A stretch of DNA of 64,000 bases from a virus: positions 40,444-104,443 of IMG/VR virus record IMGVR_UViG_3300035150_000015. One strand, 5' to 3'. This document shows positions 25,814-44,519 of this stretch, one piece after another; position 1 is the first letter of the stretch; every line of letters starts with the position of its first letter. Both the position numbers and the translations under genes were made by a program. Under the pieces are notes generated by a model. It saw only the letters and a list, made by a program, of their open reading frames with translations. It was not told where the DNA came from and did not search any database.

Positions 25814-28800
25814 CTATCTCAAAAAAGGACGACGTCTGGGGACTCTTCTATCTCCAATGTACCCTCTTTGCCTGTCTCGAATGCGCTGATATCGTTCGGA
25901 AGTCATAGAAGCGGAAGCCCGAGGCAGATGTAAGCCTCCTCCGGCCACATGTTTTTGGTTGACCAAGATATTCATTGAGAGCCATGTAGCACGGACAAGG
26001 GAGTCACTCAAGTCGTCATGATTACCTCTGACCTGGGGAGCCTGCACCAAAACAATGTTCTTAGAAAGCTTACGGGCTTCTAGACTCAACAACTCCGTAA
26101 TGAGTGAGGAGTGGCGGTCTTGGCCCTCTTTGGCCCTTTCTGGAATTGGGTAATCATAGAGCCGTAGGCTACCATTCAGAATGAAACTCTTGGCCGCTTG
26201 GTAAATCTTGCTGTTCTGGTCCCGAGTGAAAAACTCCGACCGGAACTGCTTAAGCCCCTTCTTGTGCAAGGCTTGTTCCAGAGGAATGCCGTTCCACTGG
26301 TCAAAGAGACCTGCAGTGATATGGAATCTCTTAGCTAGAGCCTCAATCCAATTGGCAATCTCACCAAAGTCCAAACGCTCTACTGTTTCCAGGGTCTTAG
26401 CATATCCCGTGGTATATTCTCCGTGGAGATGGGGGTTGGTTTCCTTCCAATCAACCCCAGCATACCATACCTCATGGTAATCCAAAGAGATGTAATCTGA
26501 TTCAGCATGGGTGATGGATACTGCTGTGCCGTCCTCCACGAGCCCAACGTCAATCCCCATCTGGTAAGGCTTACGAGGAGTCGGTCTAATGGTCGGACGA
26601 CGGCCTACATCAATGCAAGCCTCGAGATCTTTCTTTCTCTCCAACCAACCCTTGGCCTGGTCACTGAACCGAGCACCGTGCTCAGTCGCGAACACAACCG
26701 GGTCGTCGTGGTACTTCTCCTTGTAGTAGGAACTGGGGATCGTAGGATTGATTTCCCACGTAGGAGCCTGAATCGCCAAGATGTTAGCGGCTGCCGGGCC
26801 CCCGTGCATAGCTGTGCTGAACTTCTTGAAAAAGAGGCCTGACCGCCCTAAGGGGGACGAAATAAGAATGATCCTAGACTCTACTGGGGCAATATCTCCT
26901 GTCTCCTTGTCCACAGCAGGACGCCCGGTGTCAGAATCCTTCCGAGAAAAGGCGGCAGAAGACGGGGTAACAGCAGCATAAATCTCGTCAGCCGAACTGT
27001 TGCCCTTGTCTTGGAAGTGGGCCACCTCGTCGAGAATAATTACAATGTTACCGGAACCGCGAAGGCCCTTGGCGATACAGCTCTTGAATGTGACTCTCAG
27101 AGAGGCCTTGCCGTTCAGAGAGACAAACTTGCCATTCTCATGGTGGACGTTGGGCCCAAACTTCTCGATATCATAAGGGGTTCGGAAGTTGACGTGGCTT
27201 AAGGTATTGTTGGCAATGTACTGCTTGAAATAGTCGCACTTAGCCAAATGTGTGGTAACCTCACCAAATAGGAGGCCGGCCTGTTCTTTGTCCGTAGCGA
27301 CGCTAATAACTTGGATTCGGTTGCCATTCGGAAGCCCATAATACTCCTGAGGATTGTATAGGTTCAGAAGCCGATATACCTCGTAGGAGGCAAAGATGCC
27401 AGATAGGGTCGTATTATGGTTGACTACTCCATTGGCTACAAAAGATTCCCCTTCTGGAACAGTGAGATCGTAAACCTGATGCTCTCCACGCTCTATGGAT
27501 TGGACAGGATCATAGAAATAGTCCAATTCCACTAATTCTCGAAAGTGGGATGCAGCCTCCGAAGCCCCCAGGTCGATTGCAACAGATAGGGCCTTATCTA
27601 ATCGCGAGTAGGACAGGTCTTCTCCAGAGGAAGGCTTGCATGTGTTGCCGAAAGCCTTCCTCAAATGACTGCGGCCCCAACCCTTTTCACCTCTAGCAGG
27701 GTTACGTTTAGGCACAGCCTCGAGTAATTCTCGAATGTGGGAATACTGATGAGGAATACTCTCCGTATCAGACTTCCCCTCCTGAGCATTCTTCAACGCA
27801 GCCTGCAAAGGCCGCTGCTTCTTATTAGAGTCGAACCCCACCAGTTCAGCAAAAATCCTCCTTGAACGAACACCCTTTAGACTAAGAATGGCATAATATC
27901 GTTCAGTTTCGGGATTCCACTTTCTAGCCACATTGGAAACTATCCCCAAATTAAGGAGCAAAACCTGAACATCAGAGGCAAGCTCAAAACTAGCCGTAGA
28001 AAGCGTAATGTGCCTTCCGCCTCCTTCTGCCGAACCATCGGTCTCAAATAAGCCTCTCAGAAAAGCACACACCACACTCTTAGGTGACCTTAGGATAGAC
28101 CAAGGTACTCTTTTATCGTACCTGCCACACCCCCAGGACCATCCCAAGTCATGAAGAAATTGTCGCATCCCCACACTGGGGAATTCTAGTCTACCTGTAT
28201 TTTTAGTGCGCTTGTCCTTCTGAACCCTACAAGAGCCAAACAATCTATCAAACAAGTCCCTCAAGTAGAGCCAAGTCTCATCATGCTCCACAGTAACAGC
28301 CACACCCTGAGTGTGGCCCCAAGACCCATCCCCCACCAAATAACCCAGAAGGTTTCCCCATGCTTCATCTAACTGATCCGGAAAAACGAGGTCTTTACGC
28401 CCACGGTCGTTGTGAAAAGGCTTAGTATCCAGTTGTTCAGAAGCCCAAAGGTCAGTGCCTCTATGAATTGCCAAGAAATCACCGGGACGGATTTCGTCCA
28501 AGTATCGCCAGTCAACGACCCCCTCAGCAGTCATGACTCTAACTCGATGATTGGCCGTTCCCCCAATCTCGTATCCAGACTTCGTCTTCAGTGTATATGT
28601 AGGCTTTACACCCCCATTGTAGAAATGGGATGAACGGGACTTTGCCGAACCCTCTTGAGCCACCCCAATCTCTAATTCACTGAATTCCTCTTCAGAGGCA
28701 ATACCCAGCTCTTCAATAGGGAAAATTCCTCGGTCTGTGAGAACTAGAGTACCCTCCCGGTTACACTTACCGGCCCGCCGGCCTATGGCCAGAACGAGTT

Positions 28801-29158
28801 CCCGTCGGTCATGGTCCTGTTCCCCAATATTGCACCGGCCCTCATTATGAAGGTAGCTAAGATATTCCTTCTCAGTGAGCTCGTAGAGGATCTTAGTGTT
28901 GAACATGTCCGGAATCTGGATCCTCAGATTGGGGTCCTCCGGAAGAAAGTCGTCCAGCTCCAAGTTGTAGTACAGCTTGACTAGAAATTTCTGCGCTGGA
29001 AAGAGGGTCATGTTCAGACCCCAGGGCTGCTCTATGTATTCTAGAACATTGAAAATCTTGGGTTTGGCCGTTGCCACGGCCTCTTTCCCATAAGCAGATT
29101 TGACTCGTTGAGCGGTCTTCCGGACCAGCTCAGCAGCGGTCATTGGTTTGCTGGCCAA
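25814..29158 (-). CDS. terL: Terminase large subunit interrupted by an intein
   Basis: The 1114-residue precursor includes a 451-residue intein, leaving a 663-residue terminase, a normal size. TerL packages DNA into the prohead with an N-terminal ATPase and a C-terminal nuclease. The Walker A motif GRRAGKTT is split by the intein after Lys131. The Walker B motif is VIILDE (706-711), with a LISSPLG coupling segment near 766. The RNase H-like nuclease begins with MGIDVG (Asp870). A TTG start (29156-29158) is chosen because GAGGTGA lies at good spacing upstream. The first ATG, five codons in, has no Shine-Dalgarno. The candidate small subunit is the next gene upstream. Confidence 0.93.
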   Translation of the reverse strand: MASKPMTAAELVRKTAQRVKSAYGKEAVATAKPKIFNVLEYIEQPWGLNMTLFPAQKFLVKLYYNLELDDFLPEDPNLRIQIPDMFNTKILYELTEKEYLSYLHNEGRCNIGEQDHDRRELVLAIGRRAGKCNREGTLVLTDRGIFPIEELGIASEEEFSELEIGVAQEGSAKSRSSHFYNGGVKPTYTLKTKSGYEIGGTANHRVRVMTAEGVVDWRYLDEIRPGDFLAIHRGTDLWASEQLDTKPFHNDRGRKDLVFPDQLDEAWGNLLGYLVGDGSWGHTQGVAVTVEHDETWLYLRDLFDRLFGSCRVQKDKRTKNTGRLEFPSVGMRQFLHDLGWSWGCGRYDKRVPWSILRSPKSVVCAFLRGLFETDGSAEGGGRHITLSTASFELASDVQVLLLNLGIVSNVARKWNPETERYYAILSLKGVRSRRIFAELVGFDSNKKQRPLQAALKNAQEGKSDTESIPHQYSHIRELLEAVPKRNPARGEKGWGRSHLRKAFGNTCKPSSGEDLSYSRLDKALSVAIDLGASEAASHFRELVELDYFYDPVQSIERGEHQVYDLTVPEGESFVANGVVNHNTTLSGIFASYEVYRLLNLYNPQEYYGLPNGNRIQVISVATDKEQAGLLFGEVTTHLAKCDYFKQYIANNTLSHVNFRTPYDIEKFGPNVHHENGKFVSLNGKASLRVTFKSCIAKGLRGSGNIVIILDEVAHFQDKGNSSADEIYAAVTPSSAAFSRKDSDTGRPAVDKETGDIAPVESRIILISSPLGRSGLFFKKFSTAMHGGPAAANILAIQAPTWEINPTIPSSYYKEKYHDDPVVFATEHGARFSDQAKGWLERKKDLEACIDVGRRPTIRPTPRKPYQMGIDVGLVEDGTAVSITHAESDYISLDYHEVWYAGVDWKETNPHLHGEYTTGYAKTLETVERLDFGEIANWIEALAKRFHITAGLFDQWNGIPLEQALHKKGLKQFRSEFFTRDQNSKIYQAAKSFILNGSLRLYDYPIPERAKEGQDRHSSLITELLSLEARKLSKNIVLVQAPQVRGNHDDLSDSLVRATWLSMNILVNQKHVAGGGLHLPRASASMTSERYQRIRDRQRGYIGDRRVPRRRPFLR
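27413..28765 (-). other. TerL intein with LAGLIDADG endonuclease
   Basis: The intein spans residues 132-582 of the TerL precursor, 451 residues. It starts CNREGTLVLTDRGIFPIEEL and ends VYDLTVPEGESFVANGVVNHN, with Thr as the +1 residue. Block B contains TANHRVRV. Endonuclease motifs are LLGYLVGDGSW (270-280) and FLRGLFETDGS (366-376). It interrupts the Walker A P-loop between Lys and Thr, so no ATPase can form before splicing. Codon positions were checked: Cys is TGT at 28763-28765 and Asn is AAT at 27413-27415. Confidence 0.95.
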
Positions 29159-30146: not shown

Positions 30147-32113
30147 AATCCTACTTTCTGGTTCTCCCCGAATTCCACCTGTACGTCCAAAGAAGGTACC
30201 TCGGGGTTGAGCTCGAAGCTACCAGTATGATTCTGGAGTTCGTACTCGTCCCTAGTAGAAAGGCTGTGCGCCATGAGGCTCTCAAAGGAAACCTCCGTAG
30301 ACCGGCCCGACTCAAGGATCGCCTTTTGCTCAGCCTTCTTATCGATGTATGAGGGCTCAACCACTAGCTGCTTATTCAGAACAGAGCAGAACCCGGGCCT
30401 CTTGTGATGCACACAAGAGGCACACTTGGAGCCGATCTTGGCGTACTTCACGGCCGAACGGGAACGGTGCAGACGAGCTGCTTCAGTACACCCTTTGCCA
30501 TAGTCATCATAGACCGAAGGATCGATATACTTGATCCCAACAAGTCCCTGTTCAGCCAAAATAGGCCTCAATTCAGCGGCGGCGGCAGCAATGTCACGAG
30601 GGTCGAACCGGCTCTGGAGAGCTGCCCTCAGGTCATCACCGTAGAGACCCTCATTGAGATGCTTAGCGGCGGCCTTGACTACCTCCCTCTTTGCCAGCTC
30701 ACCACTAAGATGGGTCACAGTTGAGCCATAGTGCCCAACTTCCACAGCCATCCGGAGATCTCCGCTAGTCGAGGGCTTGGGCTCCATAGCAGCTTGGTGG
30801 ATAGCCTGCAGGGCCTCTCTTGGGGTGTTCCCCCACTCAAACTGAGAGGCCTCAGGAGGAAGGTTACCTGCCAGACGATGCTCGTCTAGGACCGCCGAAA
30901 CAGTGTCAGGTGTGTAGAGATCCTCAGCCGACTCGACAACCGACTTACCGTACAATAGGCATCGGCCTACCTTGTGGAAAATGCACGACCCACACTTCTC
31001 TCCAGCCACAATCGCCCGAACCTTGCTCGAGTGGCGAGCCAGGAAGTCGGCGCCCTCGTGGCAATCCGAGAACGACGACTGCGTGGAATAAAGAGTGCCG
31101 TAGAGGCCAGCCTCCTTGAGGAGAGGCATCCAATGGTCTTTGGTGGCTTTGAGCTCTTCCACACTGAAAGCCAGTCGAAGGCCTTTGATGAGTTCTGAGG
31201 CAGGCCATCCCTTGAGCATCTCCCTCCGAAGTAAAGCCACAATAGGCCTGGCTTCCTCGGCTGACACCTTGGACTGAGCTTCTTGAGAAGCTTCCCTACT
31301 AGCTGTCAAGACCTCATCGATCTCTTCACTAGAAAGAGCCGGAAGCTTTCGGGGGGCTGCCTGAGGCTGCCCCGTGTATCCTCTGGGACCCTCAGCTTCA
31401 GAAGCCATCATAGCGGCTCTGATCCTATCTCTGGGGGAACCAGCTGAAGCCTGAACTTGCAGTCCTCTAGACTTCTGGGATTGCTCCACCTTATCGGCCA
31501 ACGGCTCCGTATAAGGGACATCCATGACGATCTGCTTCTGGAAGACCCCACAGATCGGATTGGGGCCCCGCATCTGACGGAACTGGCATCCCTCACAGGC
31601 CGACTTTCCACGCACAAAAGGAGCGGAACCAGCGTACCTACGCGCAAACTCCGCAGCCGACCTGGGCTCCTGAGCGCATCTCGGGAAGTCCGCTGCGTCA
31701 ATGTAGTACCGGCCCAAAAGTCCGCGTTCTGCTAGCACACCCGCCAGAGCCGTCCTAGAGCCCCTCAGAGCCTCAAGGTCATACCGAGAGGTCAAAGAGC
31801 TCTGGATCCTAGCCGGGTCCGTAGTCTGCATGATAGCCAAACGAGCAGTCCTGACAATGTCCTCCGGAAGAGCGCGAAGCTTACCGTGAAGGTCCGACAG
31901 ATCCCCCACAGTCTTCGGTTCCCCAGTATTCGGAACAAACTTAGACGGGGCCTCATCCTCATGGGACCACAGAGCTTCCAAGTCTGGGGCTGCATCTAGG
32001 TTCTGCTTGGGCAGTACCTCGGTTTCGTGGTACTGTTGCTCGTCCACATCAAGCCAGTCTAGATCGGAAACGCTGCTTTCCTTCAAGAAATCGGTGAGGT
32101 TTAGGTCAGCCAT
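30143..32113 (-). CDS. Protein with three repeated four-cysteine modules
   Basis: The protein has 656 residues, counting from ATG 32111-32113 (MADLNLTDFLKESS); the longer frame overlaps the previous gene. Three modules share a helical lead-in, a 'GLLGxxYID' segment and four cysteines arranged C-x(21-26)-C-x2-C-x(7-11)-C. In this numbering the cysteines are 146/173/176/188, 351/374/377/385 and 542/564/567/576. Four Cys per module could hold zinc or an Fe-S cluster. Each ends with a similar 'CxxxxKxxV' strand. The gene lies in the head region just upstream of the terminase genes. I recall this layout from unannotated phage proteins but no function. Confidence 0.75.
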   Translation of the reverse strand: MADLNLTDFLKESSVSDLDWLDVDEQQYHETEVLPKQNLDAAPDLEALWSHEDEAPSKFVPNTGEPKTVGDLSDLHGKLRALPEDIVRTARLAIMQTTDPARIQSSLTSRYDLEALRGSRTALAGVLAERGLLGRYYIDAADFPRCAQEPRSAAEFARRYAGSAPFVRGKSACEGCQFRQMRGPNPICGVFQKQIVMDVPYTEPLADKVEQSQKSRGLQVQASAGSPRDRIRAAMMASEAEGPRGYTGQPQAAPRKLPALSSEEIDEVLTASREASQEAQSKVSAEEARPIVALLRREMLKGWPASELIKGLRLAFSVEELKATKDHWMPLLKEAGLYGTLYSTQSSFSDCHEGADFLARHSSKVRAIVAGEKCGSCIFHKVGRCLLYGKSVVESAEDLYTPDTVSAVLDEHRLAGNLPPEASQFEWGNTPREALQAIHQAAMEPKPSTSGDLRMAVEVGHYGSTVTHLSGELAKREVVKAAAKHLNEGLYGDDLRAALQSRFDPRDIAAAAAELRPILAEQGLVGIKYIDPSVYDDYGKGCTEAARLHRSRSAVKYAKIGSKCASCVHHKRPGFCSVLNKQLVVEPSYIDKKAEQKAILESGRSTEVSFESLMAHSLSTRDEYELQNHTGSFELNPEVPSLDVQVEFGENQKVGL

Positions 32114-33434
32114 TATCGTCCTGTAAATCCGTGAAAGGGCCTTCACGAAGGGTATGGGTGGTGTAATCGTATCGGACGTACGGAGTTGTAGCATCCTCCC
32201 ATTTTTCACCAGTATCGACTAGCCCCAGATCCTGGTTTAAGCCGTTCTGGGGCAATGAAGGGAGCCCTGATTCCGATTGAATCATGTTATCTTTCGGCCC
32301 CTGGTATTCGTCTCTCCTGGTAACCGGTTTCACTACATCTTGGGGGAGCGTGTCCAAAAGGGCCTGACGCTCGTTCAATTCTACGTCAATTGCTGGAGTA
32401 GTGTCTCCAACAGGCAATGGAGAGAGCTCGGGTAGTGTGCTACTAGGCCCTTCAACACCCTTGTATCCGGACCCTTCGCCAGAGGGGTTCAAATAGTCGC
32501 CAGCCCCCTGGCCGTGAGCTCCGTAACCCAACCCGAAATCCCAGGCTTCCGTCTGAGTCTTGGTGTCGTCTGGGAGTACGGACGTAGCAAACTCCTGACG
32601 AACCTCTTCGTCAGGCATTTGCCGGTAATCGTAGTTCATTCCAGGAGCAGACTCATCCACGACCCACTTGTCCAACGGGAAGTCTGACTGGTCGTTGTAG
32701 GTGCCAAAAGGACCCTGGCCGTCCGAGGGCCCCATATGATCTACTCGAGGCCCAGGAAGCGTGTCCACCGGGTAAGAAGAATTGGCCTGCTTCTGGACCC
32801 CTTGGTTCTCCAGCCCTGCGTTATCATCCTTCTCCTTACGAGGAATGGTCTCTTCGTCAGCTCCCACACCCCCAGAGTCAGGAAGCTTCGAACCAGGTTC
32901 GTTGTCATTCTCCTCTTCGATATCCTTGATCTCCTTCTCGGCTTCGTCTTCCGGATCACCCATGATATCCTGGGACTCTTCAACAAACCGTTGGACATCT
33001 TCCGCGTCATTCTCGGACAACTGGGCCAGCTTGGGCTTCCAGTGTGGAGCACGGATCTCATCGTAGAGAGTATCAGAAATGGAGCTCAAAGACTCGCAAG
33101 CGTCGTACAGCTTCTTGCGGATATCCGTGATTCCCATGACGTAACCACGGCCCCCCAGCTGACCGTCCGGACTAACTGTGGCACTCTTGAGGCGGGAAAA
33201 GTGGCGGTACGCTGCCAGGGCATGGCCCAGGCCTACGCTGGCAGCCCAGAGCGCCTTAGCCATAGGTTTCAGAGCACGAGGGTCGTAGGGGTGCTCCTTG
33301 GGGATATTACGCTTCTGGGGGCCTCCTGGGGGCTCCGGGGGGCCCGATTTGGAGAAAGGGGGGAAAGAGGCCGTACGTATCCCAGGCTCTTGGTATCGAG
33401 CCAAAACTTGCAGAGCCTGTTCACGCTTGCCCAT
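32106..33434 (-). CDS. Conserved phage head-region protein, unknown function
   Basis: The 442-residue protein has a folded helical N-terminal part at about residues 50-150 (DPRALKPMAKALWAASVGLG, then GRGYVMGITDIRKKLYDACE) followed by a long acidic, Gly/Pro/Asp-rich region that is probably disordered. A helical, well-behaved N-terminus with a long flexible tail suits a virion or packaging protein. It overlaps the next gene by 8 bp. No family was recognised. An open frame of 338 residues lies antisense to it but is a shadow. Confidence 0.65.
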   Translation of the reverse strand: MGKREQALQVLARYQEPGIRTASFPPFSKSGPPEPPGGPQKRNIPKEHPYDPRALKPMAKALWAASVGLGHALAAYRHFSRLKSATVSPDGQLGGRGYVMGITDIRKKLYDACESLSSISDTLYDEIRAPHWKPKLAQLSENDAEDVQRFVEESQDIMGDPEDEAEKEIKDIEEENDNEPGSKLPDSGGVGADEETIPRKEKDDNAGLENQGVQKQANSSYPVDTLPGPRVDHMGPSDGQGPFGTYNDQSDFPLDKWVVDESAPGMNYDYRQMPDEEVRQEFATSVLPDDTKTQTEAWDFGLGYGAHGQGAGDYLNPSGEGSGYKGVEGPSSTLPELSPLPVGDTTPAIDVELNERQALLDTLPQDVVKPVTRRDEYQGPKDNMIQSESGLPSLPQNGLNQDLGLVDTGEKWEDATTPYVRYDYTTHTLREGPFTDLQDDNG

Positions 33435-33437
33435 AGC

Positions 33438-33707
33438 TCAATCCTTCAGAGGGGTCTCTTCGTTGAAAAGTCTCTGGATGTAGAGACCGTCAGCCTCTCG
33501 AGTAACAGTCCAAAGATCCCGAGTAGACTTGTGTACAAGGGTCTCAGCAGAGAGCCTGTGGAATGGGTCCAGCTGCTCCAGCGAAGCTACCCTGACCTTC
33601 ATCGAAGCGGTTTTTCTCACAGGGATAGCAGACTCGGAGTTGGCCTTGAGAAAGGAATCAATTCCAGTCTCACCAGACGATTCTATACTGTTCAGGTCGA
33701 AATCCAT
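33438..33707 (-). CDS. Small conserved protein in head region
   Basis: The 89-residue protein starts MDFDLNSIESSGETGIDSFL. I chose ATG 33705-33707, preceded by GAGGAA at five bases. The C-terminal half (KVRVASLEQLDPFHRLSAET, then LVHKSTRDLWTVTREADGLY) resembles short conserved proteins I recall next to terminase genes of large phages. It is short and probably a single beta domain. Function is unknown. Confidence 0.65.
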   Translation of the reverse strand: MDFDLNSIESSGETGIDSFLKANSESAIPVRKTASMKVRVASLEQLDPFHRLSAETLVHKSTRDLWTVTREADGLYIQRLFNEETPLKD

Positions 33708-33715
33708 TGGTTTCC

Positions 33716-34654
33716 TCACAAAATGACCAACTTGACGGTGACATCCATGTAGCTGTTGGTAGAGTACCCGCTAATGCGCAGGACCTCCTGATAAGTCCCT
33801 GTAGCCATAGAAGCGATTGGGGCGACCGAGACATTGGTGATCTGGGTAGCCCCTGAAGTCAAAGTCCCAGTGACCGGGGCAAAACCAGAGAGCCAGTTTA
33901 CGGCTGTTCCAGTGAGAGCCTGTATCTGGAAGTCCAGCACGGAACCAGACGGCCCAGTATTTTCCACGGTGAGCGGCTGAGAGGGGATCGGCGGGAAATC
34001 GCTGCCATCCAAAGGCTTAATTACGGAGAAGTTCAAGAGTACCGGAGTAGCATCGATAGTAGCTTTCGGCCTCACATTAATGGTGATGGGCAAAGTCTGG
34101 GGGGTATTCGTCGCAGCAGGGTCTTGGATATCTACAGTCTCACTGTAGGGGCTGCTGGAGGAAAGAAGACTTGTCGAGTCCACGGCCACATCGAAAGAGC
34201 CTGATTCGCTGGCTGCCAGATTCCCAACATTAGCCGGAGAAACAGACACGTAAGCGGCCGAGGAGGTAATCGAAGTTCCCAAAAGGGAGCCGAAAACACC
34301 GTTGTTGGTGAGAATGACGTTCTGAGCTACGGAAAACCCTCGTCCCTCGTCTACCTCGAACACGAGAGGAGATGAGGGAGGTGTGAGGAGAATAGACGGC
34401 GGGAAGTTCGATGTGATCTCGGTAATCGAGTCCCCCATAGCCTGAACCACATCCCCTGGAATAGGAATACTGTCCCGTAAAATCCCGTAAGGGGTTGTAA
34501 TTCCTAGTATTTGAAACGTTGGGGAGGTTCCCGTGACATCCATCCGTGTAGTCCAACGCCACACACCTGTAGCTACGCTGACTTGGAACTGGTAGTCTTG
34601 GTATCTGAGGTTCGCGGCGGAAATAGTCAAGACGCCTCCGCCGAAGCAAGGCAA
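33716..34654 (-). CDS. Ig-like (BACON-type) beta protein with TTG start
   Basis: The 312-residue protein is almost all beta. Two Ig-like domains occupy about residues 95-195 and 200-312. Each ends in strands like GTYQEVLRISGYSTNSYMDV, with a Trp-Leu motif (NWLSGF) in the second, resembling BACON or choice-of-anchor Ig domains that bind glycans. The first 90 residues may be a third, more diverged domain. No ATG occurs near the 5' end. The frame begins at a TTG (34652-34654) only 18 bp after the stop of an HNH-type gene, so its original start may have been altered by insertion of that gene (inference). Confidence 0.65.
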   Translation of the reverse strand: MPCFGGGVLTISAANLRYQDYQFQVSVATGVWRWTTRMDVTGTSPTFQILGITTPYGILRDSIPIPGDVVQAMGDSITEITSNFPPSILLTPPSSPLVFEVDEGRGFSVAQNVILTNNGVFGSLLGTSITSSAAYVSVSPANVGNLAASESGSFDVAVDSTSLLSSSSPYSETVDIQDPAATNTPQTLPITINVRPKATIDATPVLLNFSVIKPLDGSDFPPIPSQPLTVENTGPSGSVLDFQIQALTGTAVNWLSGFAPVTGTLTSGATQITNVSVAPIASMATGTYQEVLRISGYSTNSYMDVTVKLVIL

Positions 34655-34672: not shown

Positions 34673-35758
34673 CTACGACCAGTTCTGCCCCCTCCCCACC
34701 TTACCAATCAAGGATACGCACACCCCAAACTCCTCTGATAGCTCCTTGTGAGAGGCCCCCTCAGCCAATCTCTGCCTAACCAGAACCACCTTTTTCCTGC
34801 TGAGCTTGGCCGTCCGTTTGGCCTGATTAATCTCTGAGGGGCTCCCCCACTCCCCGTTTCGTATCCATCCTCTAACCGCACACTCCTCACATTCTCCACA
34901 CGAGTAACTCCCCTCCAAATCGGAACGAGAAAACTTGTAGCCGGCTGGTTTTCCCCCCACATCCTCCAAGAAGGCTTCAAAATTGTCCCTCCATCGCGAA
35001 CACATTGTAATTCCAATGGCACCGTATCGAGCGTACCCATCGTGTTTCGTATTGAAGCATCGAGTCTTGATGCTCCCCCAGGTCTTGTATTCTGGAGATC
35101 CCACACCCCCGTGCTTATAGTTTTTATGCTCCGGGCCCGTCTTACAGGACCTCCTGTTGTGGGTCTGTTGAAGCTTGGAGGCCCATCTCACATTCCCCGG
35201 CTCATACCCTTTCTCGTTGTCTATTCGATCCAGGCTGTGCTGAGGAGTAGGACGAGGACCCACATCATGAAAAAAGACAGTGAAGCCATCCACCCACTCC
35301 TGACAAACCGTGATTCCCCTCCCTCCCCAATTAGGATAGTTTGAGCTATTTGGGTTGAGACATCGATCTTTCATTAAGGCCCAAGCATTGTATTCAGGGG
35401 TATGAATTAAACCGTGCTTGAAATTGGTCTTCCTACCCGGATTCCTAACCGGTCTCAATCTATTGGCCGTTCCGTGAGGCCTACGGTTATTGGCCTGCTC
35501 TTTCCAAGTGGCCCATTTCACATTCCCCGGCCTGTAACCATCATCTACGTCTATCCTGTCTAAACTATGACGAGGAGTAGGCCTTGGACCCACATAGGAC
35601 AAAAAAGCCTCAAAGTCATCAATCCAAGCCCCATACACCCCAATACCCCTCCCCCCATAGTTCAGGTAAGCCCTATGGTCAGGATTTATACAGCGAGCCT
35701 TCAGTTGTTGCCAACACTTGTACTCAGGAGTCTTACTAAGCCCGTGTTTTAGGTACAT
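34673..35758 (-). CDS. Three-module HNH-type endonuclease, mobile
   Basis: The 361-residue protein has three copies of one module. Residues 5-93 and 115-203 are intact, with TPEYKCW or TPEYNAW, YGGRGI or WGGRGI, PTPRHSLDRID and PGNVKWAT. The third (216-295) keeps the start (SPEYKTWGSIKTRC) but loses the SLDRID and PGNVRWA parts. A C-terminal helix-turn-helix (KELSEEFGVCVSLIGKVGRG) follows. The SLDRID...NxxWxxxxxQxxNRR pattern is typical of HNH-like or AP2-adjacent endonucleases of phages and bacteria. It sits alone between the sigma-like gene and the Ig-like gene, as expected for a freestanding homing endonuclease. Cleavage activity is not proven. Confidence 0.8.
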   Translation of the reverse strand: MYLKHGLSKTPEYKCWQQLKARCINPDHRAYLNYGGRGIGVYGAWIDDFEAFLSYVGPRPTPRHSLDRIDVDDGYRPGNVKWATWKEQANNRRPHGTANRLRPVRNPGRKTNFKHGLIHTPEYNAWALMKDRCLNPNSSNYPNWGGRGITVCQEWVDGFTVFFHDVGPRPTPQHSLDRIDNEKGYEPGNVRWASKLQQTHNRRSCKTGPEHKNYKHGGVGSPEYKTWGSIKTRCFNTKHDGYARYGAIGITMCSRWRDNFEAFLEDVGGKPAGYKFSRSDLEGSYSCGECEECAVRGWIRNGEWGSPSEINQAKRTAKLSRKKVVLVRQRLAEGASHKELSEEFGVCVSLIGKVGRGQNWS

Positions 35759-35815: not shown

Positions 35816-36466
35816 TTAAAAACACTCGTCTCCTCCCCGGTCACTCCACTGAGGAAGCTTCACTTCTCGAAGAATGTTGAAGTTTTTGCCAGCAATAGCG
35901 CTGAAAACCTTGTGATATGGCTCAAACTCAGGGTCCTTGGCTGCAGCAGCCTCCAGAATCCTGACGGCCTTGAAAAACCTATGGCGGACCTGACCTTGTG
36001 TCCGGTCAAGACTTTTTGCGACCTCGCTCTGGCAAGTGGTATCCCACATACCCACCAGAATGTCTACGTCTACAGGTTTGGGGAAAACTTTTGGTAAATC
36101 CCTCCTGAGATCCTCCTCAGTCACCTGGGGAATCGACAACAAGAACTTGATTCGCTGTATCCCCCTGTCTAGTCTGTAGGAAATAGCTGCTTGAGTAACG
36201 CCGAATATGACCGCAATGTCCGCCTGCCGTTTCTTACGGAGGAAATACAATGTGATCAAATCAGCCTCGCGTTCAGGAATCCTATCCAAGAGCGGCCTGA
36301 TTCTTGTCTCGTAGTCGCTGCCTGTGAACAGAGCTACATCTTCGGTAGAAAGCTCCTCGGTCTCCTCATACTCAGAGTCTTCCTCTTCACCGGGTTCTCC
36401 CGGAGTATAGGAAAAACGATTGGATAGTTCAGTCGGGTCGACGGGAATAACGTACCCTTGACTCAT
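35816..36466 (-). CDS. Sigma-70 region 4-like transcription factor with second HTH
   Basis: The 216-residue protein has an acidic N-terminal part and a region matching sigma-70 region 4 or ECF-like helix-turn-helix at about residues 53-115: IPEREADLITLYF and GVTQAAISYRLDRGIQRIK. A second helix-turn-helix follows at about 128-170 (SEVAKSLDRTQGQVRHRFFK). It lacks a clear region 2, so it is not a complete sigma factor. It may steer host RNA polymerase to late phage promoters, like other phage-encoded sigma-like proteins (inference). The start overlaps the stop of the NusG-FEN gene (ATGA), so both are made together. Confidence 0.75.
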   Translation of the reverse strand: MSQGYVIPVDPTELSNRFSYTPGEPGEEEDSEYEETEELSTEDVALFTGSDYETRIRPLLDRIPEREADLITLYFLRKKRQADIAVIFGVTQAAISYRLDRGIQRIKFLLSIPQVTEEDLRRDLPKVFPKPVDVDILVGMWDTTCQSEVAKSLDRTQGQVRHRFFKAVRILEAAAAKDPEFEPYHKVFSAIAGKNFNILREVKLPQWSDRGGDECF

Positions 36467-38292
36467 TGAGCCTCGCTGTGTCTGAAAAAGGTGGTCAAAA
36501 CTGACTTAGGGCTGACTTCTATCTGTTTCAAGAGAGATACGACTCCCTCAGGACTAACGTCTGGTCCCTTGATTGAGACAGTAACATCCTCAAGGGTCAT
36601 CAGCCTCAAATTCAATCTTACCTGAGGTTCGGCCAAACGCAACCTTTCGTACTGATTTCTCGTAAGGCCGGCCAGCCCAGAATTGTACACACCGTCCACA
36701 GACCCGTGGGCCTTCACCAGGTCCCTCAAGATCTTCTTCGGCACCCTAGGAACCCCCGGAAGATTGTCAGAAGTGTCCCCAAAGAAGGCTCTGAGTTGGC
36801 ATATGTCCTCAGGGAACACGCCCCAATCCTTCCGGACTCCATCAGGGTCGTACAGAATTTCTTTGCGGGACCCGGCCTTGGGGACCAACAGGCTAGTGTT
36901 TTTCGACACTAATTGGAGGAAGTCACGATCATTGGAGAAAATCAAATTCTGTTGACCCTGTAGCTCATTATGCACCAAGGAAGCCAGAACATCATCCGCC
37001 TCATTACCGGGGCTCTCGGCCTGACGGACACCCAACAGCGGTAAAACTCGGTAGAGCAAGTCCAGTTGTTCGTCTGTTCCTTCCCGGTGAGTACGATTAG
37101 CCTTGTACTCTCCGTAAATAGATCTTCGTTTGGAGCCCCCGCGATCTCGATCCCACGCCACGTAGAATACGGCTTCTGGGTACCTCTTCTTCAGGGCACC
37201 CAGTGAGTTCAGAAAGCCCACCACCATTCCAGTGAAACGCCCGTGAGAATCCCTAAGCTCATTCAAGCCAGGGGCCAGCCAGCACCGGTAGGCAAGGTTA
37301 TAACCATCGATAAGGATATTCTGTATCATATTTTTCTTCCCACTATAACGCACTACTTGATACTCCAAACGGTCCAAGCTCTCCCCCAAACTACGAATCT
37401 TGGCCAATACGGCCTCAAACCAAGTAAGTTCAGACAGCTTGTCCTCGATCTCTTCGGGGCTCACAGCATCAGACAAGAAACGGCTCAAGGACATAGTCTC
37501 TTCCCACAAGGGGCCCGCCCTGCCCATCAACCTAGTTGTCTCTGATACTCTGACCCACGTCTTCTGCAAGGTCAGAGACTTATGGTCCAATGACCCATTG
37601 AACAAGGCCACTATCGGCCACCAGGTCAAACCCTGGTCGCACCAAGTATACAGCTCATGGTACTTGTCATATGCCTTGAGAAGGGGCTCCACAGGTGAGT
37701 CCCAGGACAGGATAGGAGCAGCTTTCTGTGTCCACACCTTCAGAGCATTCAACTTAGAGAGAGCAGGTGAAAGTGGAGCTCTATCAACCACTCTCAAGAA
37801 CGACCGAGGAAGAGTGATCAAGCTCTCTTTGCTCCGAAGACACACATATACCTGAACCCTCCCCTGTTCTGGAATTTCCTCAATTACAGTAGCCTCAATA
37901 TTCCTGTAAGGGCCGCTGGTAACCAAGACTGTGTCACCCACCCCAATGCCCTGATCGACCTCCGCCTCAACCTGACGCCGCATCTTCTCCACTTCAGAAG
38001 TCGTGATGGTCGCCAGTTGTCGTTGCTTACCGGCCCCCGGTTCTGTGAGGACTGATTGAATGTAACGAGTGTTTTCTAGACGCAAGTAAGCCGAATCGGT
38101 ATGCTCGTAGCGAACAAAAGCATACCCCTCCACCAGATAATGCACCACCCGGTCATCCCCTATCTGGGTCACGACGGCTGGAACAAACACCTCCGCATCC
38201 TTAACGGTGGCCCGAACCACCTGCCGAATCAGGTCTGGGTCCTCGCCCTCACTGCGTGAGGCCAACTCTAAAACTATCCACTTGTCGGTCAT
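36463..38292 (-). CDS. NusG-like transcription factor fused to flap endonuclease
   Basis: The 609-residue frame joins two unrelated activities. Residues 1-85 resemble the NusG NGN domain (KWIVLEL, VEGYAFVRYEH, ENTRYIQSVL) and 117-170 the KOW domain (GVGDTVLVTSGPYRNIEATV). A helical linker covers 175-318. Residues 322-609 match the 5'-3' exonuclease/flap endonuclease family: LIDGYNLAYR, YGEYKANR, ESPGNEADDVLASL, FSNDRDFLQL and FGDTSDNLPGVP carry its metal-binding acidic residues. That part removes RNA primers and flaps. An internal ATG at 37327-37329 with GGGAAG at good spacing could also make a separate 288-residue nuclease. NusG-like proteins modulate elongation or antitermination. The start overlaps the DnaX stop. 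Confidence 0.85.
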   Translation of the reverse strand: MTDKWIVLELASRSEGEDPDLIRQVVRATVKDAEVFVPAVVTQIGDDRVVHYLVEGYAFVRYEHTDSAYLRLENTRYIQSVLTEPGAGKQRQLATITTSEVEKMRRQVEAEVDQGIGVGDTVLVTSGPYRNIEATVIEEIPEQGRVQVYVCLRSKESLITLPRSFLRVVDRAPLSPALSKLNALKVWTQKAAPILSWDSPVEPLLKAYDKYHELYTWCDQGLTWWPIVALFNGSLDHKSLTLQKTWVRVSETTRLMGRAGPLWEETMSLSRFLSDAVSPEEIEDKLSELTWFEAVLAKIRSLGESLDRLEYQVVRYSGKKNMIQNILIDGYNLAYRCWLAPGLNELRDSHGRFTGMVVGFLNSLGALKKRYPEAVFYVAWDRDRGGSKRRSIYGEYKANRTHREGTDEQLDLLYRVLPLLGVRQAESPGNEADDVLASLVHNELQGQQNLIFSNDRDFLQLVSKNTSLLVPKAGSRKEILYDPDGVRKDWGVFPEDICQLRAFFGDTSDNLPGVPRVPKKILRDLVKAHGSVDGVYNSGLAGLTRNQYERLRLAEPQVRLNLRLMTLEDVTVSIKGPDVSPEGVVSLLKQIEVSPKSVLTTFFRHSEAQ

Positions 38293-39689
38293 ATGGATGG
38301 AATCTGCCGAAGAAGGTTCTTAAACTCAAAACGCCACTGATCCGGGGTCAGGAAGTCCGGATCAGTCTTAGCAAAAATCTGGGATTCCCTCTTATTCTGG
38401 GGGCACCTGGGCTTATCTCCGTTAGCCGAGGACATATCATCCAAACTTGTCAGACGACGAAGGATCTTCTTAGGGGGGACGGATTCTTCACTAGGGGACT
38501 GTACCTCAGGTGGGCCCGTCTGCTCCCTGGAGGAAGATACCTCAACTTTGGAGGTAGCTGGCTCTGAGACCGAAGGTGAGACCGGAGGCTCAGTAGGAAC
38601 GGCCGCCAAGGGCGCCCTGGCCTCTACTACAATTCTAGATTCAACCTGACGGGAAGGCACCCCAGAAGAGCAGCCCAAGACATCACAGATCAGGCTGGTT
38701 TTGGAGGGGCGACGAGCCCCCAAAAAATACCTGGCTAACCCAAGAGTGCCCGGATCCCCGTAAGCAGCATGAACCTCCTTGGCTAACTCCTTGTCTATAA
38801 ACGCGAAATCTATGTGCATCCCATTGGACACACGATAGGAATTCATAGCCGCTTCAGCGAGCCCGGAATAGACCTCCTCAGAGGATCCGACCTGATCGTA
38901 CGCTTGTTCCACCAATTGAATCGCCTTAGCAGGTTCCCCGAGAGAGAGTAATATCTGATAGTATGTCGAAACCACAGAGATTTTCAAGTGCCCCCTGACA
39001 GCCTTCACAGTCACAGGACCCAGCTGGGCAACCATCTCCAAACGGTTCAAGGAGTCTCGGACATGGGTGCCAGAATAATCTATTACCGTTGCAACGGCGT
39101 CTTCCTCGTACTTTACCCCCTCTTGGTCGAGAACCCAGGTCATTCTCTTGAGTATATCTTCCCTGGTAATTTTCCTAAGGGCGTAATCCTCACACCTAGA
39201 GCGGATGGCGTTCCGGATCTTCTCGGGCTCTGTGGTGCACAAGATGCAAACCAGCCTCTTGTCCTCGATAGGCTTCAAGAGAACATCTTGGGCGTCACGT
39301 GACATACGGTGCGCCTCGTCGAATAGGTAAATCCTCTTCTCCACCCCAGGCAAAGCAAAGGGGAGGTCCTCTAGGATAGCCCGGACGTTGTCGATAGTTC
39401 CCTGACTAGCGGCGTCTTTCTCGCTGAAGGCCAGGGAGTCTTCCTCCAGGATCCCTTTACAATTTTCGCACTTGTTGCAAGGCTCCCCGTCCTCCTGAAG
39501 GTCCTGACAAAGGAGAGCCCGTGCCAGAATCCTGGCCAGAGTGGTTTTTCCTTGACCATGGCCACCTGAGAAGATGTAGGAGGTGTCGAGTCCCGTCCCC
39601 TTTTGGAGACGAGACTTGAGCACCTGCACAGCCCCAGACTGCCCCAGGACATCAGAGAAATTCTTTGGACGATACTTGAGATCCCACAT
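38289..39689 (-). CDS. dnaX: DNA polymerase III gamma/tau subunit
   Basis: The 466-residue protein is the ATPase motor of a bacterial-type clamp loader. It starts MWDLKYRPKNFSDVLGQ, as DnaX does. Walker A is GGHGQGKTT (42-50). The Cys cluster of the zinc module is at 61-77 (including CNKCENC). Walker B is YLFDEAH (121-127) and the SRC arginine-finger motif is at 164-166. A Pro/Ser-rich linker follows, then a short C-terminal tail rather than the long tau domains IV-V. I saw no obvious slippery A-run for a programmed frameshift. It is coupled to the NusG-FEN gene. Delta and delta-prime partners are encoded at 59672 and 60655. Confidence 0.92.
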   Translation of the reverse strand: MWDLKYRPKNFSDVLGQSGAVQVLKSRLQKGTGLDTSYIFSGGHGQGKTTLARILARALLCQDLQEDGEPCNKCENCKGILEEDSLAFSEKDAASQGTIDNVRAILEDLPFALPGVEKRIYLFDEAHRMSRDAQDVLLKPIEDKRLVCILCTTEPEKIRNAIRSRCEDYALRKITREDILKRMTWVLDQEGVKYEEDAVATVIDYSGTHVRDSLNRLEMVAQLGPVTVKAVRGHLKISVVSTYYQILLSLGEPAKAIQLVEQAYDQVGSSEEVYSGLAEAAMNSYRVSNGMHIDFAFIDKELAKEVHAAYGDPGTLGLARYFLGARRPSKTSLICDVLGCSSGVPSRQVESRIVVEARAPLAAVPTEPPVSPSVSEPATSKVEVSSSREQTGPPEVQSPSEESVPPKKILRRLTSLDDMSSANGDKPRCPQNKRESQIFAKTDPDFLTPDQWRFEFKNLLRQIPSI

Positions 39690-40481: not shown

Positions 40482-41180
40482 CTAAATGGTGTTCTGTTTC
40501 CAGAATACACCGAATCGTTCGTCCCCCCACGCCTCCCAGAGCTCGGCAGGGTCTTTTATCCACCCCTTCCCCACGATTTTAGGTACTCTCGGAATCTTAA
40601 TGATCTTGGTGGTGAAGTAATCCCGATACTCTTCCAAGAACTTCCTGCCACCTTTGGCCCCCGCGGCATCCCGATCATATAGAATCCACAACTTCCCCAG
40701 GAACCGTCTAAACAACCTTGCCAGCTCCCTAGGCACATGAGAAGTCAGAGTGGCCACTGTTCCAGGGCACTGTCTCTGAACAGGGAAAAGATCGAAGGCA
40801 CCCTCTACCACACAAGCTTCTTCTGTTTCCCACATAGCCTCAACCGCTTGAGCCAAACCAAAGAATACAGGCTCCTCAGAATAAGGAGTATAGTCCCGAT
40901 ACCCCTTTATGGCAGGAACAGAGCTCCTGAACTGCAACCCCCGAATTCCCCCCGAAGATGTAGTCAAAGGGAATACAAACATACTCTGGATAGTGGCCCC
41001 CATCGAGCACCACTTCAAGAAGTCTTTGGGATAATTCATAAGAGGGAGGGTGCCCTCAAAGTACCCCACGCGATAGGAGTCAATCTGAGAATTTGTGGCG
41101 CCCCTAGTCCACAAAGCTTCCCGGATCTCATCATCCATAAGACCTTGAGAATGCTCAACAAAAGAGTCCAGCCAAGTCAC
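40482..41180 (-). CDS. DnaG-like TOPRIM primase, short form
   Basis: The 232-residue protein matches the second half of the DnaG catalytic core. The fold lead-in is ATNSQIDSYRVGYFEG, and FPLTTSSGGIRGLQFR occupies the usual 'P..d..G.i.gf..R' position. The TOPRIM motifs are VVEGAFDLFPVQ and LWILYDRDAAGAKGG, followed by KDPAELW. It lacks the N-terminal CHC2-type zinc domain and any helicase domain. It would make RNA primers if complete, possibly with a separate zinc-binding protein. The Cys-rich 181-residue product two genes upstream is one candidate (inference). The stop abuts a repeated junction motif. Confidence 0.8.
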   Translation of the reverse strand: MTWLDSFVEHSQGLMDDEIREALWTRGATNSQIDSYRVGYFEGTLPLMNYPKDFLKWCSMGATIQSMFVFPLTTSSGGIRGLQFRSSVPAIKGYRDYTPYSEEPVFFGLAQAVEAMWETEEACVVEGAFDLFPVQRQCPGTVATLTSHVPRELARLFRRFLGKLWILYDRDAAGAKGGRKFLEEYRDYFTTKIIKIPRVPKIVGKGWIKDPAELWEAWGDERFGVFWKQNTI

Positions 41181-42324: not shown

Positions 42325-43004
42325 TTCAAACTCCTAAGGGACAAGTGGTGGGTAACTCCGTCATCCTCTGCTACATCTGTACACCGGTAAGACCGGTCGG
42401 CATGTTCCAAGAGGACGGGTTTGTGGGTGACCAGCAAAAGGTCAACTCCTAGCTCCTTAGCCACTTTCTGTGTGAATCGGCTGGCCTGCTCAAGATACTC
42501 ATCAGAAACAGCCCCCAAAGACTCGTCCATTGCCACGAACGGCCATCGTTTAAGCTTAAGCACGGTTAAAACCCGGAGGGCTAACGAAGTCACACTCGAG
42601 GGGCCCCCGCCAAAGTTCTCCAAGGGTTTACCTCGGTGGGACTGCAAATGACCCCTCTCTCCTTGACGGAAAAAGAAGTCCACTGCCACTTTACCGTATT
42701 TCAAACTGAGCTCAGACTCCAAACTCAAATTCTGATCGTAGAATACCTCTCTCAGAGCCTCGGTCACCACATCTTCTACCGATTTGACCTGCTGGAGGAC
42801 CAGAGAGTCCAACAGGTGTCGGTACAACTCTAGCACCTTGGCCAGCTTCTCAATTCTCTGGCTCAACTCAGAGACCTCGTGTTGTTTCGACTCGATGTCC
42901 GAAACAACACGATTCCTGAGAGCAGTTAGCCGAATGACCCGAGTTTCTAGGGCACGGACCCTACCCCCTAATCCTTCGACGACATGAATCGGGTCACCAC
43001 ACAT
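42321..43004 (-). CDS. Rad50/SbcC-like C-terminal ATPase half, separate gene
   Basis: The 227-residue protein starts with a coiled-coil segment (SDIESKQHEVSELSQRIEKL). The C-terminal ABC ATPase lobe follows: signature-like FGGGPSSVTSLALRVL (about 129-145), Walker B WPFVAMDESLGAVS (about 154-167) and a D-loop/switch LLLVTHKP. No Walker A is present. The Walker A half with a CxxC hook is encoded at 46440-47915, so together they make a split Rad50/SbcC/T4 gp46-like protein. The ATG at 43002-43004 has AGAGGA upstream and overlaps the clamp gene by 37 bp. Confidence 0.8.
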   Translation of the reverse strand: MCGDPIHVVEGLGGRVRALETRVIRLTALRNRVVSDIESKQHEVSELSQRIEKLAKVLELYRHLLDSLVLQQVKSVEDVVTEALREVFYDQNLSLESELSLKYGKVAVDFFFRQGERGHLQSHRGKPLENFGGGPSSVTSLALRVLTVLKLKRWPFVAMDESLGAVSDEYLEQASRFTQKVAKELGVDLLLVTHKPVLLEHADRSYRCTDVAEDDGVTHHLSLRSLK

Positions 43005-44209
43005 GCGAAGGATTCCTCTTCTGGCTTAGGAATAATGGTCTTGCCTTGAGGGGTGAGGGAAAAAGACTCAATCGTCCTAAAGAGCCCCTTCTTGCGGCCG
43101 CCTATGGTGCGAATAGCAATACGAAGCTCGACCTCATGACCTTTTACGGGTTCCACCAGCTCTAGGAAATGAGAGATCCCGATGTTGCTGGAAAAATCCT
43201 CGGCTTCAGCCACAGACCATTCTTCCTTGACCGGGCTCACCCCAACAGGAGAACTGACTGCCTGGCCAGTCTTGCTGCTGACTTTGAAGGTGAGTGTTTT
43301 ATCCTCATGGGAATAGGTCAGACGGGCCTTGTCCTTAGCGGTATCCCCTTCCTCTCTCATGTGATAGAGAGCATCAAGGAGTAAGCTCTTCGGGGCAACC
43401 AGTGAAAAAGTTTCCCACTTACGAGGGTAATAGGAATACTTCACGTGTTGCTTAGTCGGCTGTGTCCAACCCAGAACATGCCCCTTGTCTGAGATAGCGA
43501 AGGCAGTCTCTTCATTGGTACGAACAGTGACTTCACCATACCCACACCGTGACAAAAACGAAATGACACTAGGCAGATGGTTGCCGTGAATGGCCAAGCT
43601 CTTCCCCTTTAAGGCATCGCAATGGAAGTAGAAAGAGGTGTTCACTGCAGCTGAAAAGAAGCAACCATCTCCCTTAGCACTCTCACCTTGATTGTCGAAG
43701 ATCCGGATACTCTTCAATTGCTCGTTGCCCTCTGTGACCCCCGCATCATTGGGTTTCACCAAGTGGGGGCGGCACAAGGACAAAGCCTCCTTAAGAACGG
43801 CCACTGGGTAGGTATGCTCCGTAGTAGCCTCCTCCAGAGACTCGTCGCTGGTGCTCAAAAGACCCGGGTCAAAAGACACAAGTTCGGCCGAGGAACCTCC
43901 CTCTGTCCTGTACTTAACCCAGTAAGAGTTGTCTTTAACGCCAGCTTCGATCTCAACCCACCCCCGAAAAGTCTTAAAGGATCCTACTTTCTTGGCCGGG
44001 TAGACAAATGACCCTTCTCCCTCAGACTCCAAAAGTGGTAGGTCCACCCTAATGTGGCGTGAACTGTCTCGAGAATAGACGCGACACACGCCGTCCTTCA
44101 AAACGAACAAGAACCCCTCTCCGCCCTTAGCCGTCACCGGTTTAGGGGACACGATGGAAGCTGTATCTACAGCCTCTTTCAGATCTGCGGCTTGTATTCT
44201 GATTTTCAT
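42968..44209 (-). CDS. Sliding-clamp-like protein, putative beta subunit
   Basis: The protein has 413 residues from ATG 44207-44209 (MKIRIQAADLKEAVDTASIV). GAGG lies six bases upstream, which is better than the ATG two codons earlier. The N-terminus fits DnaN domain 1, and the protein has DnaN-like alternating strand-helix sections and a C-terminal strand (FACVVTRF) where beta clamps carry their 'vvMP' end. It would ring the DNA and bind polymerase and ligase. Sequence similarity is weak, but the clamp-loader genes elsewhere in the window make a clamp expected. A Rad50-like ATPase half overlaps its end. Confidence 0.65.
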   Translation of the reverse strand: MKIRIQAADLKEAVDTASIVSPKPVTAKGGEGFLFVLKDGVCRVYSRDSSRHIRVDLPLLESEGEGSFVYPAKKVGSFKTFRGWVEIEAGVKDNSYWVKYRTEGGSSAELVSFDPGLLSTSDESLEEATTEHTYPVAVLKEALSLCRPHLVKPNDAGVTEGNEQLKSIRIFDNQGESAKGDGCFFSAAVNTSFYFHCDALKGKSLAIHGNHLPSVISFLSRCGYGEVTVRTNEETAFAISDKGHVLGWTQPTKQHVKYSYYPRKWETFSLVAPKSLLLDALYHMREEGDTAKDKARLTYSHEDKTLTFKVSSKTGQAVSSPVGVSPVKEEWSVAEAEDFSSNIGISHFLELVEPVKGHEVELRIAIRTIGGRKKGLFRTIESFSLTPQGKTIIPKPEEESFACVVTRFMSSKD

Positions 44210-44243
44210 ATACATCCTCTTTTTATCCCCCGGGCCAAATGGC

Positions 44244-44519
44244 TCAGGATTCATCGATTGCAGCTAGAGCCCTTTCCACCTGGGCAAGGTCCTGGCCGAA
44301 AGTCTCAATCAAACCCTCTAGCTCTGAAGCGGCCTTATCCCTCTCAGCCTTCAGATCCTTCGGGCTATAGCCGGCTTCCCGGATCTCTTTCCCGAGTCTG
44401 GCCAGCTCCTGCCTCTTAACCTCTAACTGACCAGCCAGTTTTGACTTCTTAGCGTCAGCAGCACGATGCCTCCTCAAGAGGTCTTCCACCCGAGCCTGCA
44501 TATTCTCTAGTGAATCCAT
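44244..44519 (-). CDS. Small coiled-coil protein
   Basis: The 91-residue protein starts MDSLENMQARVEDLLRRHRA and is almost wholly a coiled coil (KKSKLAGQLEVKRQELARLG). The ATG at 44517-44519 is preceded by GGAGG at six bases. The longer frame has a worse start. It lies between the clamp-like gene and the Cas4-like nuclease. It could be an accessory that bridges the split Rad50 or the nuclease, but that is a guess. Confidence 0.65.
   Translation of the reverse strand: MDSLENMQARVEDLLRRHRAADAKKSKLAGQLEVKRQELARLGKEIREAGYSPKDLKAERDKAASELEGLIETFGQDLAQVERALAAIDES

Follow-up and report, generated by a model that had tools for sequence, protein, structure and literature searches.

Does a single phage gene encode a NusG-like transcription elongation factor joined to a complete flap endonuclease (FEN), and if it does, is one product made from it or two, and what could the joining serve? 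The question is raised by a gene in a stretch of 64,000 nucleotides, hereafter the window, taken from a virus record of 104,443 bases. The preliminary description of the locus had reported one uninterrupted frame at 36463–38292. This is borne out on the minus strand, where the frame opens with an ATG at 38292 and closes with a stop at 36463, while the plus strand is full of stops across the same interval. The encoded 609-residue protein consists of an NGN–KOW region, a helical spacer and a complete 5′-nuclease/FEN domain (Table 1). HMMs, PDB sequence search, fold searches and AlphaFold agree on this domain order, and the AlphaFold model of the whole protein has a mean pLDDT of 83. As far as sequence can establish it, the fusion is confirmed as observed.

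Table 1. Features of the fusion gene and its neighbourhood, in window coordinates.
Feature	Position	Strand	Evidence
NusG–spacer–FEN fusion gene	36463..38292	minus	609-aa open frame; domain matches, AlphaFold, full-length fused homologues
NGN (residues 1–112) and KOW (118–170) of NusG-family protein	37783..38292	minus	Pfam, PHROG 6386, PDB, AlphaFold, Foldseek
Helical spacer, residues 171–321	37330..37782	minus	AlphaFold helices
5′-3′ exonuclease/flap endonuclease domain, residues 322–609	36466..37329	minus	Pfam, PDB, Foldseek, catalytic residues
Internal ATG (Met322), predicted start of 288-aa stand-alone FEN	37327..37329	minus	Start codon conservation, weak mRNA structure
Shine-Dalgarno-like GGGAAG, 6 nt before internal ATG	37336..37341	minus	Anti-Shine-Dalgarno pairing
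DnaX-like clamp-loader ATPase, directly upstream, 4-nt overlap	38289..39689	minus	Pfam PF13177 E 4e-25; PHROG 5846 E 6e-54
Sigma-70 region 4-like protein, directly downstream, 4-nt overlap	35816..36466	minus	Pfam Sigma70_r4 E 9e-12; synteny
Toprim primase-like gene, same gene string	40482..41180	minus	PHROG 47 E 1e-12
Possible sliding clamp / processivity factor	42968..44254	minus	PHROG 947 E 3.5e-4 only

The identity of residues 1–170 as a NusG-like NGN–KOW region, proposed from the start, is upheld by profiles and predicted structure alike. A single-protein Pfam search places NusG at residues 4–105 (E 5.5e-4, 20.8 bits), just below the cut-off of 22.2 bits that the DNA search passes (24.6), and KOW at residues 118–148 (E 6.7e-4), directly C-terminal to the NGN domain as in NusG/Spt5. 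PHROG 6386, “transcription antiterminator”, matches residues 34–152 (E 1.6e-9), and a profile built from 21 phage NGN–KOW sequences retrieves T. maritima NusG from the PDB (E 2.8e-9) together with many other NusG/Spt5 chains. The region is modeled by AlphaFold with a pLDDT of 91.6, and its best PDB fold matches in Foldseek are NusG structures (E 2e-9); lack of any structural match to NusG, which would have refuted the reading, is contradicted by both the PDB profile search and Foldseek. Full-length TM-scores against PDB chains are low (0.3–0.46), probably because the NGN and KOW domains sit in different relative positions. Foldseek aligns the KOW domain with the KOW-only chain 2mi6 at a TMt of 0.82 and a 101-residue RfaH chain aligns at 0.68, and identity to NusG and RfaH in structural alignments is about 14–22%. 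W5, P38, Y57 and F59 are found in 35 of 35 fusions, and the GYxF region aligns with GYxFV / PGYV of NusG chains, so that the core NGN motif adjoining the RNA polymerase-binding pocket is present. What is absent is the KOW aromatic contact for S10/Rho (F165 in E. coli NusG): an invariant R153–S154 aligns with the Phe–Gly of T. maritima NusG. The invariant Arg–Ser argues against ordinary S10/Rho binding, and since an Arg holds the position of the aromatic contact in these alignments, the partners of this KOW domain probably differ.

The C-terminal module matches both Pfam 5_3_exonuc_N (residues 326–491, E 1.1e-31) and 5_3_exonuc (residues 493–573, E 5e-11), and the N-terminal nuclease domain, the C-terminal helical domain and the overall FEN fold are all present. 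The 5′ nuclease of Pol I is matched in the PDB with E 1e-44, and fold matches include M. smegmatis FEN (Foldseek, E 5e-17) and ExoIX. Nine catalytic carboxylates (D329, D381, E431, D433, D434, D455, D457, D506 and D509) are invariant in all 35 fusions, as are the arch residues Lys397/Arg400. The domain had been described as a complete FEN, which stands, and its stand-alone form as close to T5 exonuclease in size; its affinity is nearer to Pol I-type 5′ nuclease domains and the mycobacterial FEN than to T5 exonuclease. That it acts as a nuclease is inferred from the intact catalytic residues, without biochemical data. Eight fused records were tested, and none has a PF02739 match apart from the fusion; many virus records are perhaps fragments, and a missing gene is therefore not proof of absence. 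A conserved C-terminal LxxFF was considered as a clamp-binding box and not adopted, because it seems to coincide with the helix that presumably ends Pol I-type 5′ nuclease domains. A recurrent FEN tail of the GFxK(T/S) type, possibly a short binding motif, occurs in relatives with a separate FEN gene and in many fused ones (e.g. L095, L097, L045 and L071); the window's protein is without it.

The helical linker that had been postulated between the two parts is supported by AlphaFold helices of low to moderate confidence over about 150 residues. A spacer is found in every fusion, at lengths of about 100–205 residues in fused relatives, and is not seen in relatives with split genes. Several relatives carry tandem repeats of roughly 30–40 residues in it, the self-repeat score reaching z 8.7 in relatives and only 1.5 in the window protein.

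Overlaps of 4 nt with both dnaX and the sigma region 4 gene place the fusion gene in a tight gene string, in keeping with the link to these genes that had been suggested. The string also contains a metallopeptidase gene, and further upstream lies the possible clamp, for which no Pfam clamp match was found. NAD ligase, UvsX, SbcCD, a RecD-like helicase and terminase are encoded in the same record. Adjoining the sigma-like gene is a 361-residue protein (34673–35758) with three tandem similar units (TPEY..W..RC.NP...) and no Pfam match. Elsewhere in the window, an HNH endonuclease region, probably an intein, lies within a 1110-residue ribonucleotide reductase (56332–59664), and an 828-residue protein (9084–11570) contains an internal LAGLIDADG homing endonuclease region. 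The terminase large subunit (25814–29158) and a UvsX-like protein (47912–49213) match different parts of PHROG 9666, a possible sign of a shared inserted element. A long open frame at 32736–33752, opposite a 442-residue gene (32106–33434), is probably driven by composition.

Relatives were collected as 29 viral loci via the DnaX neighbour and then by alignment searches, which brought the number of non-identical full-length fusions to 35 including that of the window. The 34 others come from many contigs of IMG/VR, in records of up to 529 kb, and fused proteins are 34–54% identical to the window's. Absence of the fusion from related phages, combined with a sequencing error, would have overturned the observation; such an error is excluded because the frame is kept at full length in these 34 further sequences. 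The 29 loci separate into fusions and stand-alone nusG genes, and three states of the locus can be distinguished. The first, dnaX–nusG–sigma, has no 5′-nuclease family match in records of up to 536 kb; the second, dnaX–nusG–FEN–sigma, has separate adjacent genes (L095, L097/L098, L099 and L127); the third, dnaX–nusG::spacer::FEN–sigma, is fused. By synteny the sigma-like gene is kept downstream in all three. On an unrooted DnaX tree of 50 sequences each state forms one side of a supported branch (100/99, 100/99 and 100/98; 100/99 for the fused state), L096 being a divergent, long-branched fusion. The FEN tree is weakly resolved and does not reject a clade of fused and split FENs (p-AU 0.35), and with the DnaX tree unrooted no direction, fusion or fission, is given. 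Relatives with separate genes keep nusG next to dnaX, which makes this adjacency independent of the fusion; judged by these gene orders, NusG beside DnaX does not require fusion. Two further observations concern these relatives: the dnaX genes of L008, L028 and L043, from fused and FEN-less phages, have an intein-like insertion of about 430 residues after about residue 50, and one stand-alone phage NusG (L016:9421-10350) has an extra C-terminal region of about 110 residues without a Pfam match.

Outside these records the fusion was not found in GTDB genomes, and in annotated phages and plasmids no place covered 80% of the fusion query, the matches listed being to the FEN half. A search of annotated phages with the NGN domain alone returned one unannotated 485-kb phage, LR745208.1, with dnaX beside the match. 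A single-protein pattern search with the window protein gave no relatives, its patterns probably lying in variable parts, and no fusion was among the best matches in a viral structure library. The library of literature searched held no report of a NusG–flap endonuclease fusion in one polypeptide. Both NusG and FEN are known families; their combination with a dual start is new within the searches made.

The ATG at Met322 and the GGGAAG ahead of it are both present as first described, and the proposal that the gene may yield a second product has gained support from several directions. Of the 25 fusions in the window's clade, 23 have a start codon exactly three codons before the FEN core (the N of NxxxDG): ATG in 17, GTG in four and TTG in two. 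The residue at this −3 position varies between Met, Val and Leu, and in the 23 start-bearing members every Val is encoded by GTG and every Leu by TTG; the overall share of GTG among Val codons in the fusion genes is 33%, and that of TTG among Leu codons 25%. The exceptions are L042, with a GTG one codon earlier behind GAGGAG, and L076, with none; among all fused relatives the canonical internal start is missing in L076 and L096. In a second group of fusions the ATG lies further ahead of the FEN core, by six to nine codons, and Thr is the usual next residue. Both L095 and L097, whose genes are split, open the FEN with M-K-T-N-V-I-V-D-G; its ATG overlaps the nusG stop and occupies the −3 position found in the window's clade, and in L127 and L099 the FEN also appears to start within a few nucleotides of the nusG stop.

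Shine-Dalgarno pairing at the internal start averages −5.7 kcal/mol in the window's clade, against −3.0 kcal/mol at 938 other in-frame starts (p ~5e-7). The window's own internal pairing is weak (−4.2 kcal/mol), that of the second group (−4.5) is also weaker than the clade mean, and long-form starts sampled in relatives average −7.2; in the window, the start of the long form falls within the overlap with dnaX. In 24 of the 25 sequences tested, the mRNA around the internal start folds more weakly than the gene does on average; the mean z is 1.29 in the first group (p 2e-7) and 1.22 in the second (p 0.002), and the window itself has a z of 2.07. These p-values overstate independence because the sequences are related. 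Several different signals nonetheless agree, and on the comparative evidence the internal start is well supported and the in-frame FEN start bears marks of selection. As the start codon is conserved, its Shine-Dalgarno pairing is stronger and its mRNA structure weak, the gene probably makes both NusG–FEN and FEN, a prediction for which there are no product data.

How might the two products be used? We consider it fairly probable that the gene supplies a bifunctional protein and, from the internal start, the nuclease alone; the sole FEN detected would then serve replication in its short form and transcription complexes in its long form. The NGN domain would bind the β′ clamp helices of the host RNA polymerase; without binding data, this partner is inferred from the family trait of NGN domains and from the finding of no phage RNA polymerase β subunit in related records. 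The NGN of NusG/Spt5 is located at the upstream edge of the transcription bubble. A FEN parked there by the long form would therefore lie near RNA re-annealing behind the polymerase. The free short form would work with a Pol A-type polymerase and NAD ligase to remove RNA primers and 5′ flaps, a role inferred from the Pol A-type polymerase in relatives, the lone PF02739 match and the ligase in the window. Pol A was detected in 14 of 17 related records, though not in the window's own record of 104 kb, possibly a fragment; searches of related records for DnaE and for RNase H found nothing.

The purpose of the tether is a more tentative inference. FEN held on the elongating polymerase could trim re-annealed RNA, in R-loops or in transcripts used as origin primers, or it could be available where a fork runs into transcription. 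That FEN tethered to the host polymerase processes re-annealed RNA or origin-primer transcripts, with the internal start releasing free enzyme for lagging-strand maturation, seems to us possible but somewhat less than an even bet, and a function at polymerase–replisome conflicts or R-loops remains a hypothesis. Relatives without the fusion, or without a detected FEN, manage without the tether, which counts against this model.

The joining may instead be one of convenience, in which adjacent co-regulated genes became one without any functional coupling, each domain works on its own and the internal start brings FEN back to its normal dosage. The split relatives with adjacent, overlapping nusG and FEN genes fit such an origin, and the kept internal start suggests a need for free FEN; we nevertheless regard it as unlikely, though still to be reckoned with, as the fused state is kept across a deep clade (34–54% identity) despite the existence of split and FEN-less relatives, and every fusion has a dedicated spacer that the split relatives do not show. 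More doubtful still is a NusG module that serves as a docking arm, bringing RNA polymerase to the replisome for replication-coupled transcription, for which the outline exists in phage T4 (PMC7892883). In its favour, the genes for the clamp loader, NusG and the sigma-like protein lie side by side in every state of the locus, the FEN-less one among them. No clamp-binding motif has been demonstrated, however, the LxxFF being seemingly part of the nuclease fold, and NusG works in elongation rather than promoter selection. An assembly artefact or a mispredicted frame joining two genes, to which the separate genes of a few sampled relatives might have pointed, is refuted by the 34 related fusions and can practically be ruled out.

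Returning to the shared nuclease as our preferred reading, a clade of large uncultured phages would join a NusG relative to its own replication nuclease in one protein. Transcription and DNA processing would be physically linked in a new way, and a replication nuclease directed to transcription complexes would become open to direct test. The string of clamp-loader, NusG and sigma-like genes, even without FEN, suggests from gene order a replication–transcription link independent of the fusion. Split-gene relatives and those without a detected FEN offer natural comparisons, and the conserved internal start would allow the two products to be separated by one codon change.

Among known systems, phage T4 couples replication to late transcription through the clamp gp45, the sigma-like gp55 and the co-activator gp33 (PMC7892883). 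The fusion locus likewise links clamp-loading and sigma-like genes to a likely RNA polymerase-associated factor; it differs in having a NusG-type elongation factor and a DnaX-type loader, with no evidence of clamp-dependent promoters. With bacterial NusG, archaeal and eukaryotic Spt5 and the phage antiterminator family PHROG 6386 the fusion shares the NGN and KOW folds and their order, W5, P38, the GYxF motif and significant NusG profile matches. Unlike NusG/Spt5, it has an invariant Arg153–Ser154 in place of the Phe–Gly of the KOW tip, carries a helical spacer and nuclease and is encoded beside a clamp loader. The FEN shares its full fold, nine metal-binding carboxylates, arch Lys/Arg and C-terminal helical domain with the Pol I 5′ nuclease, M. 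smegmatis FEN, E. coli ExoIX, T5 exonuclease and T4 RNase H, and departs from them in its N-terminal NusG–spacer extension; although its nearest sequence relatives are Pol I 5′ nuclease domains, it is not joined to a polymerase. For the dual start, T7 gene 4A/4B offers a phage parallel: an in-frame internal start gives it a second product, and the likeness extends to one frame, long and short products and an internal start codon with a Shine-Dalgarno sequence. In the fusion the two products are predicted only, and the extra part of the longer one is a transcription factor module.
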